From: Microvirga roseola
GTDB taxonomy: Bacteria; Pseudomonadota; Alphaproteobacteria; Rhizobiales; Beijerinckiaceae
Length of the DNA: 64,000 bases
Direction: 5' to 3'
Assembly: GCF_020866965.1 (NCBI RefSeq)
Contig: NZ_JAJATX010000007.1
Span: 62,001 to 126,000, forward strand
This document shows, one piece after another, positions 6,420-19,205 of this stretch. The notes beneath the pieces are model-generated. The model was given only the letters and a program-made list of their open reading frames with translations. It did no database searches and was not told the origin of the DNA. Position 1 is the stretch's first letter. Every line of letters starts with the position of its first letter. The translations under genes were made by a program, and so were the position numbers.

Positions 6420-7910
6420 TCACAGGCCTGCGAGGCAGATGTATTTCAGCTCGAGGAAGCCCTCGATGCCATACTTGGAGCCCTCGCGCCCGAGGCCCGA
6501 CTGCTTCACGCCGCCGAAGGGGGCCATCTCGTTGGCGAGCGCCGGGGTGTTCACGCCCACCATGCCGCTCTCCAGGGCCTCCGCCACGCGCCAGACGCGG
6601 GCCATGTCCTTGGCGTAGAAGTAGGAGGCGAGGCCGAACTCGGTGTCGTTCGCCATGGCGATCACATCCGCCTCGTCCTTGAACGGGATGATGGGAGCCA
6701 GCGGCGCGAAGGTCTCTTCCTTCGTCACCTTCATGCTCTGGTTGATGCCCGTCATCACCGTCGGCTCGAAGAAGGTGCTGCCGAGGTCCGAGCGCTTGCC
6801 GCCGATCAGCAGCTTGCCGCCCTTGGCCAGGGCATCCGCCACATGGTCCTCCATCTTCGCCACGGCGCGGTCGTCGATCAGCGGGCCCATGGCCACGCCT
6901 TCCTCCGTGCCCCGTCCGAGCTTGAGGGCTTTCGCCTTCTCGGCCAGCTTCTCGGCAAAGGCTTCTGCGACGCTCTCCTGCACATAGATGCGGTTGGCGC
7001 AGACGCAGGTCTGGCCGGCATTGCGGAACTTCGAGGCCACGGCTCCGGCCACCGCCGCATCGAGATCCGCATCGTCGAACACGATGAAGGGCGCATTGCC
7101 GCCGAGCTCCAGCGACAGGCGCTTGATGCTGTCGCCCGCCTCCCGCATCAGCCAGCGGCCGACATTGGTGGAGCCGGTGAAGGTGATCTTCGCCACCTTC
7201 GGGTTGTGGCAGAACTCCTCGCCGATGGGCTTCGCATCGTTCGTGGTGATGACCGAGAACGCGCCCTTCGGGACCTCTGCCCGCTCGGCCAGCACGGCGA
7301 GCGCAAGGGCCGAGAGCGGGGTCTGGGCCGCGGGCTTGAGCACCATGGTGCAGCCGGCGGCGAGCGCCGGGCCGACTTTCCGGGTGATCATGCCGTTCGG
7401 GAAGTTCCAGGGCGTGATCGCAGCGCAGACGCCGACCGGCTGCTTGAGCACCACGATGCGCTGGTCGGGCGCGGCGCCCGGGATGACGTCCCCGTCGATG
7501 CGCTTGGCTTCCTCGGCGAACCACTCGATATAGGCGGCGTTCGAGATCACCTCGCCCTTGGCCTCGGCCAGCGGCTTGCCCTGCTCCGTGGTGAGGATCA
7601 GCGCCAGATCGTCGGCATTCTCGATGATGAGGTCGTACCACCGCCTCAGGACCTTGCTGCGCTCCTTGGCCGTGCGCTTGGCCCATTCCTTCTGCACCTC
7701 GTGCGCCTTGTCGATGGCGCGGCGCGCGACCTCGGGCCCGAGGTCCGGAACATGCGTGATGATCGAGCCGTCGAAGGGATCCGTGACGGGAAGGGTCTTG
7801 CCCGCGGGGGCATCGATCCACTCGCCGGCCACATACGCCTGCCCCACCAGCAGGGACGGGTCCTTGAGGGCGGCAATGCGGCTTTCGGCAGGCTTGTGAT
7901 GGGCTGTCAT
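6420..7910 (-). CDS. Sulfolactaldehyde dehydrogenase (GabD-like aldehyde dehydrogenase)
   Basis: A 496-residue NAD(P)-dependent aldehyde dehydrogenase close to succinate-semialdehyde dehydrogenases. Catalytic residues are E268 (LELGGNAP) and C302 (GQTCVCANR), with the PWNFP motif at 167-171. In the sulfo-Entner-Doudoroff pathway a GabD-like enzyme oxidises 3-sulfolactaldehyde to 3-sulfolactate, the end product of the cell. The assignment rests on context: this is the last gene of an operon holding every other step, three bases behind the exporter gene. Taken alone, the sequence would be called succinate-semialdehyde dehydrogenase, and both activities can occur in this family. Length is normal and no residues are missing. 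Confidence 0.8.
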   Translation of the reverse strand: MTAHHKPAESRIAALKDPSLLVGQAYVAGEWIDAPAGKTLPVTDPFDGSIITHVPDLGPEVARRAIDKAHEVQKEWAKRTAKERSKVLRRWYDLIIENADDLALILTTEQGKPLAEAKGEVISNAAYIEWFAEEAKRIDGDVIPGAAPDQRIVVLKQPVGVCAAITPWNFPNGMITRKVGPALAAGCTMVLKPAAQTPLSALALAVLAERAEVPKGAFSVITTNDAKPIGEEFCHNPKVAKITFTGSTNVGRWLMREAGDSIKRLSLELGGNAPFIVFDDADLDAAVAGAVASKFRNAGQTCVCANRIYVQESVAEAFAEKLAEKAKALKLGRGTEEGVAMGPLIDDRAVAKMEDHVADALAKGGKLLIGGKRSDLGSTFFEPTVMTGINQSMKVTKEETFAPLAPIIPFKDEADVIAMANDTEFGLASYFYAKDMARVWRVAEALESGMVGVNTPALANEMAPFGGVKQSGLGREGSKYGIEGFLELKYICLAGL

Positions 7911-7912
7911 CG

Positions 7913-8677
7913 TTAAGCTCCCATGAGGTGAATGACGGAAGGCGCGCCGAGCGACACACCTGAGAGAAACAGAAGGGCGACCACGATGCGGCGCATCGTA
8001 GCCGGGGAAAAAGGCGGCGGCCAGCGGCGGGCTGCATAGGTCGCGCCCATGACCGCCGGGATGGCGAGGAAGGCGGACCAGGTGGAGCCCGACGGCAGAT
8101 GCCCGGCCAGCGCCACGATGCCGATACGAAACACCGAATTCACGGCGAAAATCGTCACCAGGGTCTCGCGAACCTTCACCATCTGCATCGGCTGACGGTA
8201 GAAGTGATAGACCAGAGGTGGGCCCGCGGTCGAGAACATGCCACCCATCAGGCCCGCAATTCCGCCGAAAACCAGGAAAGAGAGCTTGCCGGACGGACGC
8301 CTCAGCGGTGCGGGCTTTCGCGCGAGCTGCAGGCTCGAGACGATGATGACGAGCCCGAGGATCAGGCGCAGGAGATCCGCACGGTCGCCCGCCAGCCAGT
8401 CGAGCAGCCAGTAGCCCACGAAGAGGAGCGGCAGGCTGGCCGCCATGACGAGCCAGAACTCGCGCCGGGCGATGTCGCGCCAGCCCTTGAGGAACATCTG
8501 CACCGCATTGACGAGAACCAGCACGCTCACGACCAGGGCCGCATCGGGCAGCGGCATGATTCCCATGAGGCCCACGCCGCCCATGGTGATGAGCCCGAAG
8601 GCGAAGCCCGTCAGGGTCTGGGCATAGGCGGCCGCCCCTGCCAGGAGCAGGAAGCCGATCAGCTCAGGAAGAGACAT
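7913..8677 (-). CDS. TauE/SafE (TSUP) family transporter, probable sulfolactate exporter
   Basis: A 254-residue integral membrane protein with about eight spans. It shows the TSUP repeat signature at both halves: GAAAYAQTLTGFAFGLI near the N-terminus and GLMGGMFSTAGPPLVYHFY after the middle. Members export or import sulfur-containing organic anions. In sulfoglycolytic gene clusters a TauE/SafE-type protein is the proposed sulfolactate exporter. It sits two bases before the sulfolactaldehyde dehydrogenase and three bases after the sulfoquinovosidase, so it is part of the same transcript. Role is inferred from family plus context. Confidence 0.78.
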   Translation of the reverse strand: MSLPELIGFLLLAGAAAYAQTLTGFAFGLITMGGVGLMGIMPLPDAALVVSVLVLVNAVQMFLKGWRDIARREFWLVMAASLPLLFVGYWLLDWLAGDRADLLRLILGLVIIVSSLQLARKPAPLRRPSGKLSFLVFGGIAGLMGGMFSTAGPPLVYHFYRQPMQMVKVRETLVTIFAVNSVFRIGIVALAGHLPSGSTWSAFLAIPAVMGATYAARRWPPPFSPATMRRIVVALLFLSGVSLGAPSVIHLMGA

Positions 8678-18068: not shown

Positions 18069-18131
18069 CGCTTCCTCCGTAGAAGTTTCGGATGCCGGTT
18101 CCTCGCCGCCATCTCCGTCGTTAAGGGCTGC

Positions 18132-19205
18132 TCAGTTGAGGGCCCGCTCCGTTGCCGCATCGAACAGATGGATCCGGGACGGATCGACACCGATGGACAG
18201 GATCTCGCCAGGCTGGGGCCGCATCTCCGGCGCGACACGCGCCGTGAGAGTGGCGCTCCCAAGGGCGAAATGGATGAGCGTGTCGGAGCCCAGCGGCTCG
18301 ACGACCTGCACGCGACCGGACAGGGGCTGCCCCTCGCCGGCCGACACGAAATGCTCGGGGCGGATGCCGACGACGACCTCACGGCCTTCGAGCCCGTTCG
18401 CCTTTCCGGCGCCGTTTCGATGCAGGGGAAGATGCTCGCCGCCGTCAAACACGATCTCGCCGCTCTGGACGACGCCCTTGGCGAAGTTCATGGCGGGCGA
18501 ACCGATGAAGCCGCCGACGAAGATGCTGGCGGGGCTGTTATAGACCTCGTCCGGCGTGCCGACCTGCTCGATCTCGCCGCCCTTCAGGATCACGATCCGG
18601 TCGGCCAGCGTCATCGCCTCCACCTGATCGTGGGTCACGTAGATGATGGTGGTGCCGATGGCCTGGTGGAGCCGCTTGATTTCTGTGCGGACTTGGCCGC
18701 GCAGCTTGGCGTCGAGGTTGGAAAGCGGTTCGTCGAAGAGAAAAACCTGCGGACGGCGCACGATGGCACGGCCCATGGCCACGCGCTGGCGCTGGCCGCC
18801 CGAAAGCTGACTCGGACGGCGCTCAAGCAACTGGCCGATGCCGAGCATCTCGGCAGCCTGGGTGATGCGCGCCTTGATCTCGTCGGCCGCAACGCCCCGC
18901 ACCTTCAGGCTGAAGGCCATGTTCTCATAGACGGTCTTGTGCGGGTAGAGCGCGTAATCCTGGAACACCATGGCGATGTCGCGCTCGCGCGGCGGCAGCT
19001 TGTTGACCACCTTCTCGCCGATGCGAATCTCGCCGCCGCTGATGCTTTCGAGACCCGCGAGCATGCGCAGAGTCGTCGACTTGCCGCAGCCGGACGGACC
19101 GACCAGCACGACGAATTCCCGGTCCGCGATCTCGAGATCGATGCCCTTCACGATCCGAAGCGAACCGTAACTCTTTTCAAGCCTACGGAAGCTGACCGAC
19201 GACAT
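18132..19205 (-). CDS. ABC transporter ATPase (UgpC/MsmK type), first gene of the sulfoquinovose operon
   Basis: A 357-residue ATPase with Walker A GPSGCGKST at 36-44, signature LSGGQ at 134-138, and Walker B FLFDEP at 155-160. The C-terminal extension (about 235-357) is the regulatory TOBE/OB domain of the CUT1 class, with GIRPEH. I start at ATG 19205 (MSSVSF); a start five residues earlier is possible. It is the first gene behind the promoter at 19305-19333. It energises uptake through the two permeases downstream. Confidence 0.88.
   Translation of the reverse strand: MSSVSFRRLEKSYGSLRIVKGIDLEIADREFVVLVGPSGCGKSTTLRMLAGLESISGGEIRIGEKVVNKLPPRERDIAMVFQDYALYPHKTVYENMAFSLKVRGVAADEIKARITQAAEMLGIGQLLERRPSQLSGGQRQRVAMGRAIVRRPQVFLFDEPLSNLDAKLRGQVRTEIKRLHQAIGTTIIYVTHDQVEAMTLADRIVILKGGEIEQVGTPDEVYNSPASIFVGGFIGSPAMNFAKGVVQSGEIVFDGGEHLPLHRNGAGKANGLEGREVVVGIRPEHFVSAGEGQPLSGRVQVVEPLGSDTLIHFALGSATLTARVAPEMRPQPGEILSIGVDPSRIHLFDAATERALN

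Follow-up and report, generated by a model that had tools for sequence, protein, structure and literature searches.

The described systems closest to the locus reported here are the sulfoglycolytic Entner-Doudoroff (sulfo-ED) pathways for sulfoquinovose (SQ) of Pseudomonas putida SQ1 and Rhizobium, the SQ monooxygenase pathway of Agrobacterium (sulfo-SMO) and the tandem sulfofucolytic-sulfolactate sulfolyase pathway of Paracoccus wurundjeri. We analyzed a 64,000-nucleotide stretch of Microvirga roseola DNA (hereafter the window; contig C206 of genome G000), in which positions 6420–19205 of the minus strand very probably hold a LacI-controlled sulfo-ED operon. As the first-pass annotation had noted, the operon is a run of eleven genes, all confirmed as intact in the list of open reading frames (ORFs), and eight of its ten intergenic gaps are shorter than 20 bases (63, 80, −4, 9, 11, 5, 15, 8, 3 and 2 in transcription order). 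From 5' to 3', these genes encode the ATPase, binding protein (SBP_bac_1) and two permeases (BPD_transp_1) of an ATP-binding cassette (ABC) importer, an IlvD/Edd dehydratase, an HpcH/HpaI aldolase, an SMP-30 lactonase, a short-chain dehydrogenase/reductase (SDR), a glycoside hydrolase of family 31 (GH31), a TauE/SafE-family exporter and a GabD-like aldehyde dehydrogenase. The Pfam assignments (ABC_tran, ILVD_EDD, HpcH_HpaI, SGL, SDR, GH31, TauE, Aldedh) agree with the families named earlier.

The enzyme families are those of P. putida SQ1 (PMC12890257, PMC9594981), as had been claimed, and the P. putida SQ dehydrogenase PpSQDH is the top match of the window SDR; P. putida SQ1 differs in having a mutarotase gene (PMC5902678), which the window operon lacks. 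For Rhizobium, the comparison is based on the copy of Rhizobium sp. WSM4643 rather than on the R. leguminosarum SRDI565 sequence. Its annotated 627-kb plasmid pWSM4643_1 carries the same twelve genes, that is, LacI and the eleven operon genes in identical order, with proteins 58–85% identical to those of the window and the same operator and promoter geometry. P. putida SQ1, in contrast, presumably differs from the window in both importer and gene order. Within the best 80 of 592 relatives of the sulfoquinovosidase (SQase), taken from contigs of one genome per species, LacI and all eleven genes recur in the same order in nine loci, namely those of M. arsenatis (L003), Rhizobium oryziradicis, R. 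lentis, R. ecuadorense, two Rhizobium sp., two Shinella and Devosia oryzisoli. The gene-order comparison suggested in the first pass thus speaks for the assignment: because the order and the divergent LacI are shared by nine of these 80 loci and by an annotated Rhizobium plasmid, the arrangement is not due to chance. The Agrobacterium loci (L013, L014, L016) have a SmoF-type importer and GH31 in common with the window, but an SQ monooxygenase is expected in a sulfo-SMO cluster, whereas none is found among the eleven operon genes, to which this search was confined. P. wurundjeri combines an Entner-Doudoroff-type trunk with SlcC, ComC and SuyAB in one genome, as may be the case here, but has a sulfofucose-specific dehydratase and does not grow on SQ (PMC12421959); the window has a PF00920 dehydratase and an SQase.

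The assignment to SQ is carried by the closest relatives of known structure. In a search of the PDB, the binding protein matched SmoF (7nbz) at E 3.2e-196, with the second match at 5.8e-65, and the SDR matched 9gwu, labelled 'Sulfoquinovose 1-dehydrogenase', at E 9.2e-93 (second match 1.1e-60). The latter entry is the structure of PpSQDH, in which Asp99, Arg101, Arg152, Arg154 (via water) and Gln198 contact SQ (PMC12133307). Reading the PDB alignment by eye (chain offset 13), we found that all ten catalytic, NAD- or SQ-contacting residues named for PpSQDH are identical in the window SDR (Asp45, Asp99, Arg101, Asn119, Ser147, Arg152, Arg154, Tyr160, Lys164, Gln198), and the SDR tetrad is conserved. 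The GH31 protein gave 5ohy/5ohs as best matches (E 0), followed by the 'Sulfoquinovosidase' YihQ (5aed, 7e-226), while other GH31 enzymes appear from the seventh row, at 2.7e-44 and down. We take 5ohy/5ohs, labelled alpha-glucosidase yihQ in the match table, to be the Agrobacterium SQase (AtSQase); the window positions matching K245, E270, R283 and W286, residues whose numbering and role in SQ specificity we assume, are identical in the PDB alignment. PF01055 occurs at a single place in the whole genome, the operon GH31, which is 82–87% identical to the proteins of seven named Microvirga. The sulfo-ED families SDR (PF13561), lactonase (PF08450), dehydratase (PF00920) and aldolase (PF03328) are all present in the operon, and the earlier proposal of a full sulfo-ED set was borne out in that there are candidates for every enzymatic step, accompanied by an SQase-type GH31, by the importer genes and by an exporter of the TauE family.

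Several observations weigh against this assignment. NCBIfam cut-offs name the dehydratase an L-arabinonate dehydratase, the GH31 an 'alpha-glucosidase' and GabD a succinate-semialdehyde dehydrogenase (SSADH), and the best NCBIfam model for the SDR is D-xylose 1-dehydrogenase, with a score below the cut-off. The last residue of the window SDR is Asn; in PpSQDH this position is Gln260, which touches Arg152 from the second sphere. In addition, the mutarotase gene missing from the operon is present in 9/20 sibling clusters of the genus. Bland labels for the single genes had been anticipated in the first pass, and the WSM4643 annotation also reads alpha-glucosidase and L-arabinonate dehydratase. 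Taken as family names, with these two above and the D-xylose dehydrogenase model below the cut-off, they would fit a plain operon for the non-phosphorylative use of an aldose (arabinose, xylose or glucose) that includes an alpha-glucosidase. We consider this highly improbable, given that importer and SDR have proteins labelled for sulfosugars as their nearest relatives of known structure (as do GH31 and GabD, if 5ohy/5ohs and 8c54 are what we take them to be), and a TauE exporter has no evident role in a plain aldose pathway. An operon for sulfofucose (6-sulfo-galactose) or another sulfosugar is likewise hardly credible. The sulfofucose route uses a dehydrogenase, a lactonase and an aldolase of the same families, but its dehydratase belongs to PF13378/PF02746, and the dehydratase family PF00920 sets the SQ route apart from it (PMC12421959). 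The operon dehydratase is of PF00920 and not of the PF13378/PF02746 type, the genome beyond the operon not having been searched for PF13378. Furthermore, the operon has an SQase-type GH31, and the SQases of E. coli and Agrobacterium are reported to be inactive on a sulfofucoside (PMC12421959).

According to the sulfo-ED reading, the SmoF-type ABC importer would take in sulfoquinovosyl glycerol or SQ, and GH31 would release SQ, which the SDR, using NAD+, would oxidise to 6-deoxy-6-sulfogluconolactone. Hydrolysis of this lactone by the SMP-30 enzyme would give sulfogluconate, the IlvD/Edd enzyme would dehydrate sulfogluconate to 2-keto-3,6-dideoxy-6-sulfogluconate (KDSG), and the HpcH/HpaI aldolase would cleave KDSG into pyruvate and sulfolactaldehyde. 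GabD would then oxidise the sulfolactaldehyde to sulfolactate and TauE pass it out of the cell, with LacI on the operators O1 and O2 holding the promoter off until a pathway-derived inducer arrives. Activities, substrates and fluxes, the binding of the operator pair by LacI, its inducer and the direction of TauE are all inferred from sequence. The operon itself is ordinary, a further case of the known sulfo-ED pathway, now in Microvirga; a literature search pairing sulfoquinovose with Microvirga found no report. Beyond what had been annotated before, we describe the divergent LacI gene (19468–20526), the operators, a terminator-like repeat (6368–6390), a caution on GabD and a gene cluster on contig C188 of the same genome (Table 1).

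Table 1. Predicted features of the sulfo-ED locus in the window and of the candidate sulfolactate cluster on contig C188.
Feature	Position	Strand	Evidence or remark
LacI-family repressor, divergent	19468–20526	+	PF00356 (LacI helix-turn-helix) and Peripla_BP_3
Predicted operator O1, TTTCGCAGCGCTCCGATT, near lacI start	19435–19452	-	same AGCGCT core in 30/30 distinct intergenic regions
Predicted operator O2, ATCGTAGCGCTATGAT, overlapping the operon's -10 hexamer	19305–19320	-	AGCGCT core there in 30/30 distinct intergenic regions; 0-mismatch match
Sigma-70-like promoter, TTGCGA-17-TATGAT	19305–19333	-	only promoter-like match in 5900–20700; 1.3 expected by chance
ABC transporter ATPase (UgpC/MalK type), putative SQ-glycoside importer, first gene	18132–19205	-	ABC_tran, OB_MalK, TOBE_2; collinear with ugpC of Rhizobium sp. 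WSM4643
Periplasmic binding protein, SmoF type (putative sulfoquinovosyl glycerol binding)	16806–18068	-	top PDB match SmoF 7nbz; SBP_bac_1
ABC permease 1 (UgpA/MalF type)	15787–16725	-	BPD_transp_1; conserved order; start is a chosen internal ATG, ORF as listed extends to 16983
ABC permease 2 (UgpE/MalG type)	14930–15790	-	BPD_transp_1
Putative 6-deoxy-6-sulfogluconate dehydratase, ILVD_EDD family	13184–14920	-	PF00920 and PF24877; NF009559 933 bits vs cut-off 882
Putative KDSG aldolase, HpcH/HpaI family	12363–13172	-	PF03328
Putative 6-deoxy-6-sulfogluconolactonase, SMP-30 family	11473–12357	-	PF08450, 271 bits; start set by spacing, ORF as listed reaches TTG at 12426
Putative sulfoquinovose 1-dehydrogenase, SDR (PF13561), NAD-type	10693–11457	-	top PDB match 9gwu; active-site residues kept
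Putative GH31 sulfoquinovosidase	8681–10684	-	top PDB match 5ohy/5ohs
TauE/SafE-family exporter, presumably of sulfolactate	7913–8677	-	PF01925, 74.8 bits
GabD-type aldehyde dehydrogenase, presumed sulfolactaldehyde dehydrogenase	6420–7910	-	top PDB match 8c54; above NCBIfam SSADH subfamily cut-off
Terminator-like 10-bp stem between convergent genes	6368–6390		8 such sites found vs 6.0 expected; weak alone
Candidate sulfolactate degradation cluster (L118)	G000:C188:5410–11952		minus strand: TctC-type binding protein, GntR; then divergent suyA, suyB, exporter, dehydrogenases; found via PF04295 search
Candidate suyA (SAF domain)	C188:7337–7624
Candidate suyB (PF04295 search)	C188:7630–8817		side by side with suyA
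YeiH-type exporter, D-2-hydroxyacid dehydrogenase (SlcC-like), Ldh_2 dehydrogenase (ComC-like)	C188		one run after suyB

The operators were surveyed in 34 loci with a divergent LacI and an ATPase (each at least 55% identical and less than 900 bases apart), which represent 30 distinct sequences including the window. Two AGCGCT cores were found in all 30 distinct intergenic regions, and base shuffles reach two in 0.2%. The copy proximal to the ATPase (O2 in the window) sits between a TTG-type -35 and the -10, with TATGAT forming the right arm of the palindrome; the -35/-10 spacing is 17 in 24/30 regions, and the TTG lies one base closer in the remaining six. A whole-genome scan found the 0-mismatch operator only at the operon and two more places with one or two mismatches, and a reversed control pattern gave two matches. 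Because the 0-mismatch operator occurs nowhere else in the genome, a LacI-repressed regulon of one locus is predicted. The operator is not confined to sulfo-ED loci, since five of the 30 (L035, L038, L039, L042 and L043, all Bradyrhizobium) have no dehydratase match. Of 25 other loci scanned, 10 contain the 8-mer TAGCGCTA and 15 lack it, the latter group including Microvirga clusters with the other importer.

The label of the last operon gene has to be read with caution. The best PDB match of GabD is 8c54 (E 3.6e-258; second match 8.8e-198), labelled succinate semialdehyde dehydrogenase in the match table, which we take to be RlGabD. Trp162, Arg171, Glu261, Arg289 and Cys295 of 8c54 stand at the positions that PMC10599462 assigns to RlGabD, the enzyme of the Rhizobium pathway measured there as a sulfolactaldehyde dehydrogenase. 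The sulfonate-binding Arg pair proposed for RlGabD (PMC10599462) was tried as a discriminator and rejected: both residues are also found in the SSADH 3jz4, and the pair therefore does not discriminate. Besides passing the SSADH subfamily cut-off, the window GabD falls in a tree of 55 rows within a Microvirga clade of 26 (support 100/99), in which operon and non-operon copies are mixed, and a gamma-aminobutyrate (GABA) transaminase (TIGR00700, above cut-off) adjoins the non-operon gabD in three of the eight neighbourhoods read from 29 non-operon regions fetched, one of the three lying inside this clade. The tree position and the transaminase neighbours count against the pathway assignment. GabDs that are 81–91% identical are encoded outside the SQ cluster throughout the genus, also where the genome has no SQ operon. 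Tree mixing, non-operon copies and GABA transaminase neighbours thus ruled out GabD as a marker specific to SQ operons. Since the window GabD clusters with Microvirga GabDs from outside SQ operons, its label is not diagnostic; it is no proof of sulfolactaldehyde dehydrogenase activity, and neither by sequence nor in the tree is the protein, although RlGabD-like, separable from GABA-type GabDs.

It is plausible, though somewhat less likely than not, that the operon GabD is mainly the cell's SSADH, which landed in the SQ operon or doubles within it. In addition to the points above, no GabD-like match other than the operon copy reaches E <= 1e-150 in the window genome, and GabD is found in just 3/20 Microvirga sibling clusters; two clusters end at contig ends, and 15/18 untruncated ones lack it. 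Against this, the operons of Rhizobium, Shinella and Devosia likewise end with GabD, and so does the activity measured for RlGabD speak against it. Because GabDs occur outside the cluster across Microvirga, the sulfolactaldehyde step may in most siblings be performed by a GabD encoded elsewhere; three sibling genomes (G002, G009, G024) have no GabD above 56% identity.

Comparing the window with its siblings, we found the sulfo-ED cassette to be modular within Microvirga. The SmoF-type importer with LacI is present in 12/20 sibling clusters, while in 8/20 the importer is a different ABC system, with a second GH31 gene behind it. An aldose-1-epimerase gene (PF01263) lies between aldolase and lactonase in nine of the 20, none being found in the window, and TauE is absent from four. 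Microvirga loci with the other importer include L004 (19–4219), L097, L104–L106, L111 and L113–L115, and the second GH31 protein measures 792–825 aa in L004, L007 and L008. Outside the genus, three Aurantimonas/Jiella loci (L030, 1–12016; L040; L048) encode an SQase and an SQ dehydrogenase, two of them also having a lactonase and two a mutarotase, and their genomes are suyB-positive; no IlvD/Edd dehydratase or aldolase match was found within 10 kb. An Elstera locus (L027) has no SMP-30 lactonase match, as is reported for related genomes (PMC13372026).

With regard to the flanks, no gene among the window ORFs is shared with the 20 sibling loci, as far as these extend (some 6 kb beyond GH31 towards GabD, but 0.9 kb in two of them, and some 2 kb beyond lacI), and no tRNA was found in the window. 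A lower-GC stretch near the downstream end of the operon (57.5% at 2001–4000) includes a Phage_integrase-family ORF (1444–2532) and a LuxR-type regulator with an autoinducer-binding domain (2763–3563). Adjoining lacI is a long glycine-rich ORF (20627–21724) with GGGSGGGG repeats and no Pfam match.

The first-pass annotation had described the operon as a self-contained uptake-to-export module. Importer and TauE are present, but the operon may be only part of the route: given the candidate sulfolactate-cleaving cluster on C188, the pathway may not stop at sulfolactate. In Paracoccus, SuyAB are found with SlcC and ComC close by (PMC9594981, PMC12421959). The SuyB candidate is 80% identical to a Paracoccus versutus protein, whose gene is adjoined by a sulfate-exporter-family gene, and 68% to a Cupriavidus pinatubonensis protein with hpsN and hpsO nearby. 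Among 241 matches in plasmid records (the best 40 being listed), 13 reach at least 60% identity, down to 63.5%, and the next one listed stands at 39%. The other PF04295 proteins of the genome were rejected as suyB, the one on contig C95 being a galactarate dehydratase (870 vs cut-off 731) and the one on C36 scoring 397, below the cut-off. C188 is Microvirga's own: relatives of a gene lying 4.8 kb past comC, 69–79% identical to it, occur in 17/22 same-genus genomes and in 0/14 genomes of other families.

Together, the two loci would allow a tandem route, in which sulfolactate from the operon passes through an in-house SlcC/ComC racemase and the SuyAB lyase, giving sulfite and a second pyruvate instead of or besides export. 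We regard this as a serious possibility, just short of one that we would favour. The gene content of C188 and the SuyB identities point towards it, as do a Mo-oxidoreductase on C95 that might oxidise sulfite and the finding that suyAB lie divergently beside the dehydratase gene in 4/24 non-Microvirga sulfo-ED loci. On the other hand, the suy cluster is on a separate contig with its own regulator, a scan of the 18 kb surrounding suyAB that allowed up to 3 mismatches gave no match to the LacI operator, and TauE is still in the operon. The single enzymes are also less clear than their names: galactarate dehydratase is the only solved relative of SuyB, and the SlcC-like protein matches phosphoglycerate dehydrogenases only. 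The ComC-like protein scores 191 vs a cut-off of 500, with piperideine-2-carboxylate reductase as top solved relative and L-sulfolactate dehydrogenase seventh. A suyB of this class is found in 2/37 Microvirga genomes, one of which lacks the SQ operon, so that both occur together in the window genome only; on these counts, the idea that suyB tracks the SQ operon inside Microvirga was rejected. The C188 cluster may also serve environmental sulfolactate.

We then related TauE to suyB across genomes. Outside Microvirga, suyB was searched for 50/73 loci, the remaining 23 all being without a dehydratase match, and 24 of the 50 have dehydratase, aldolase and SDR and entered the comparison; L071 (no SDR match), L025 (contig edge), L068 and L079 (no dehydratase match) fall outside it. 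Of these 24 genomes, seven carry suyB, which accompanies six of seven TauE-less loci and one of 17 TauE-bearing loci (Fisher 0.0003, uncorrected for kinship); a locus counted as TauE-bearing when it encodes a homologue of the window TauE, so that other exporters are possible. With Microvirga included, suyB is found for 6/11 TauE-less vs 2/34 TauE-bearing loci (Fisher 0.001, likewise uncorrected for kinship). Outside the genus, four of the six loci with suyB but no TauE are metagenome-assembled genomes (MAGs) with alike clusters, and all four TauE-less Microvirga clusters lie in genomes without suyB. In four MAG loci (L050, 529–12013; L056, 1–12022; L057, 1–12016; L059, 529–12007), suyA-suyB stand divergently next to the sulfo-ED genes, forming a joined SQ-to-sulfite island with dehydratase, aldolase, mutarotase, lactonase, SDR and GntR, as well as comC and slcC where the locus extends.

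For sulfo-TAL (sulfoglycolytic transaldolase) clusters, the literature describes pathways that SuyAB extend (PMC9594981), and complete breakdown has been proposed for Ensifer sp. HO-A22, which has sulfo-ED and 2,3-dihydroxypropane-1-sulfonate (DHPS) genes (PMC10599462). One Klebsiella is mentioned as having converted about 10% of SQ to sulfate, and both halves in one bacterium are considered unusual (PMC12421959). Our literature search, which covered partial texts and few subscription papers, found no report of sulfo-ED with SuyAB. As one of two exceptions with both TauE and suyB, the window genome may export or cleave. We therefore put forward, tentatively and with some doubt, that one cell could fully degrade SQ, with sulfo-ED giving pyruvate and sulfolactate, the unlinked SlcC/ComC/SuyAB giving pyruvate and sulfite and TauE serving as overflow, and that the choice between export and cleavage may be a general one. 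With candidates for both halves in one genome, a predicted operator and the pattern of TauE versus suyB, such a one-cell route becomes testable in Microvirga.

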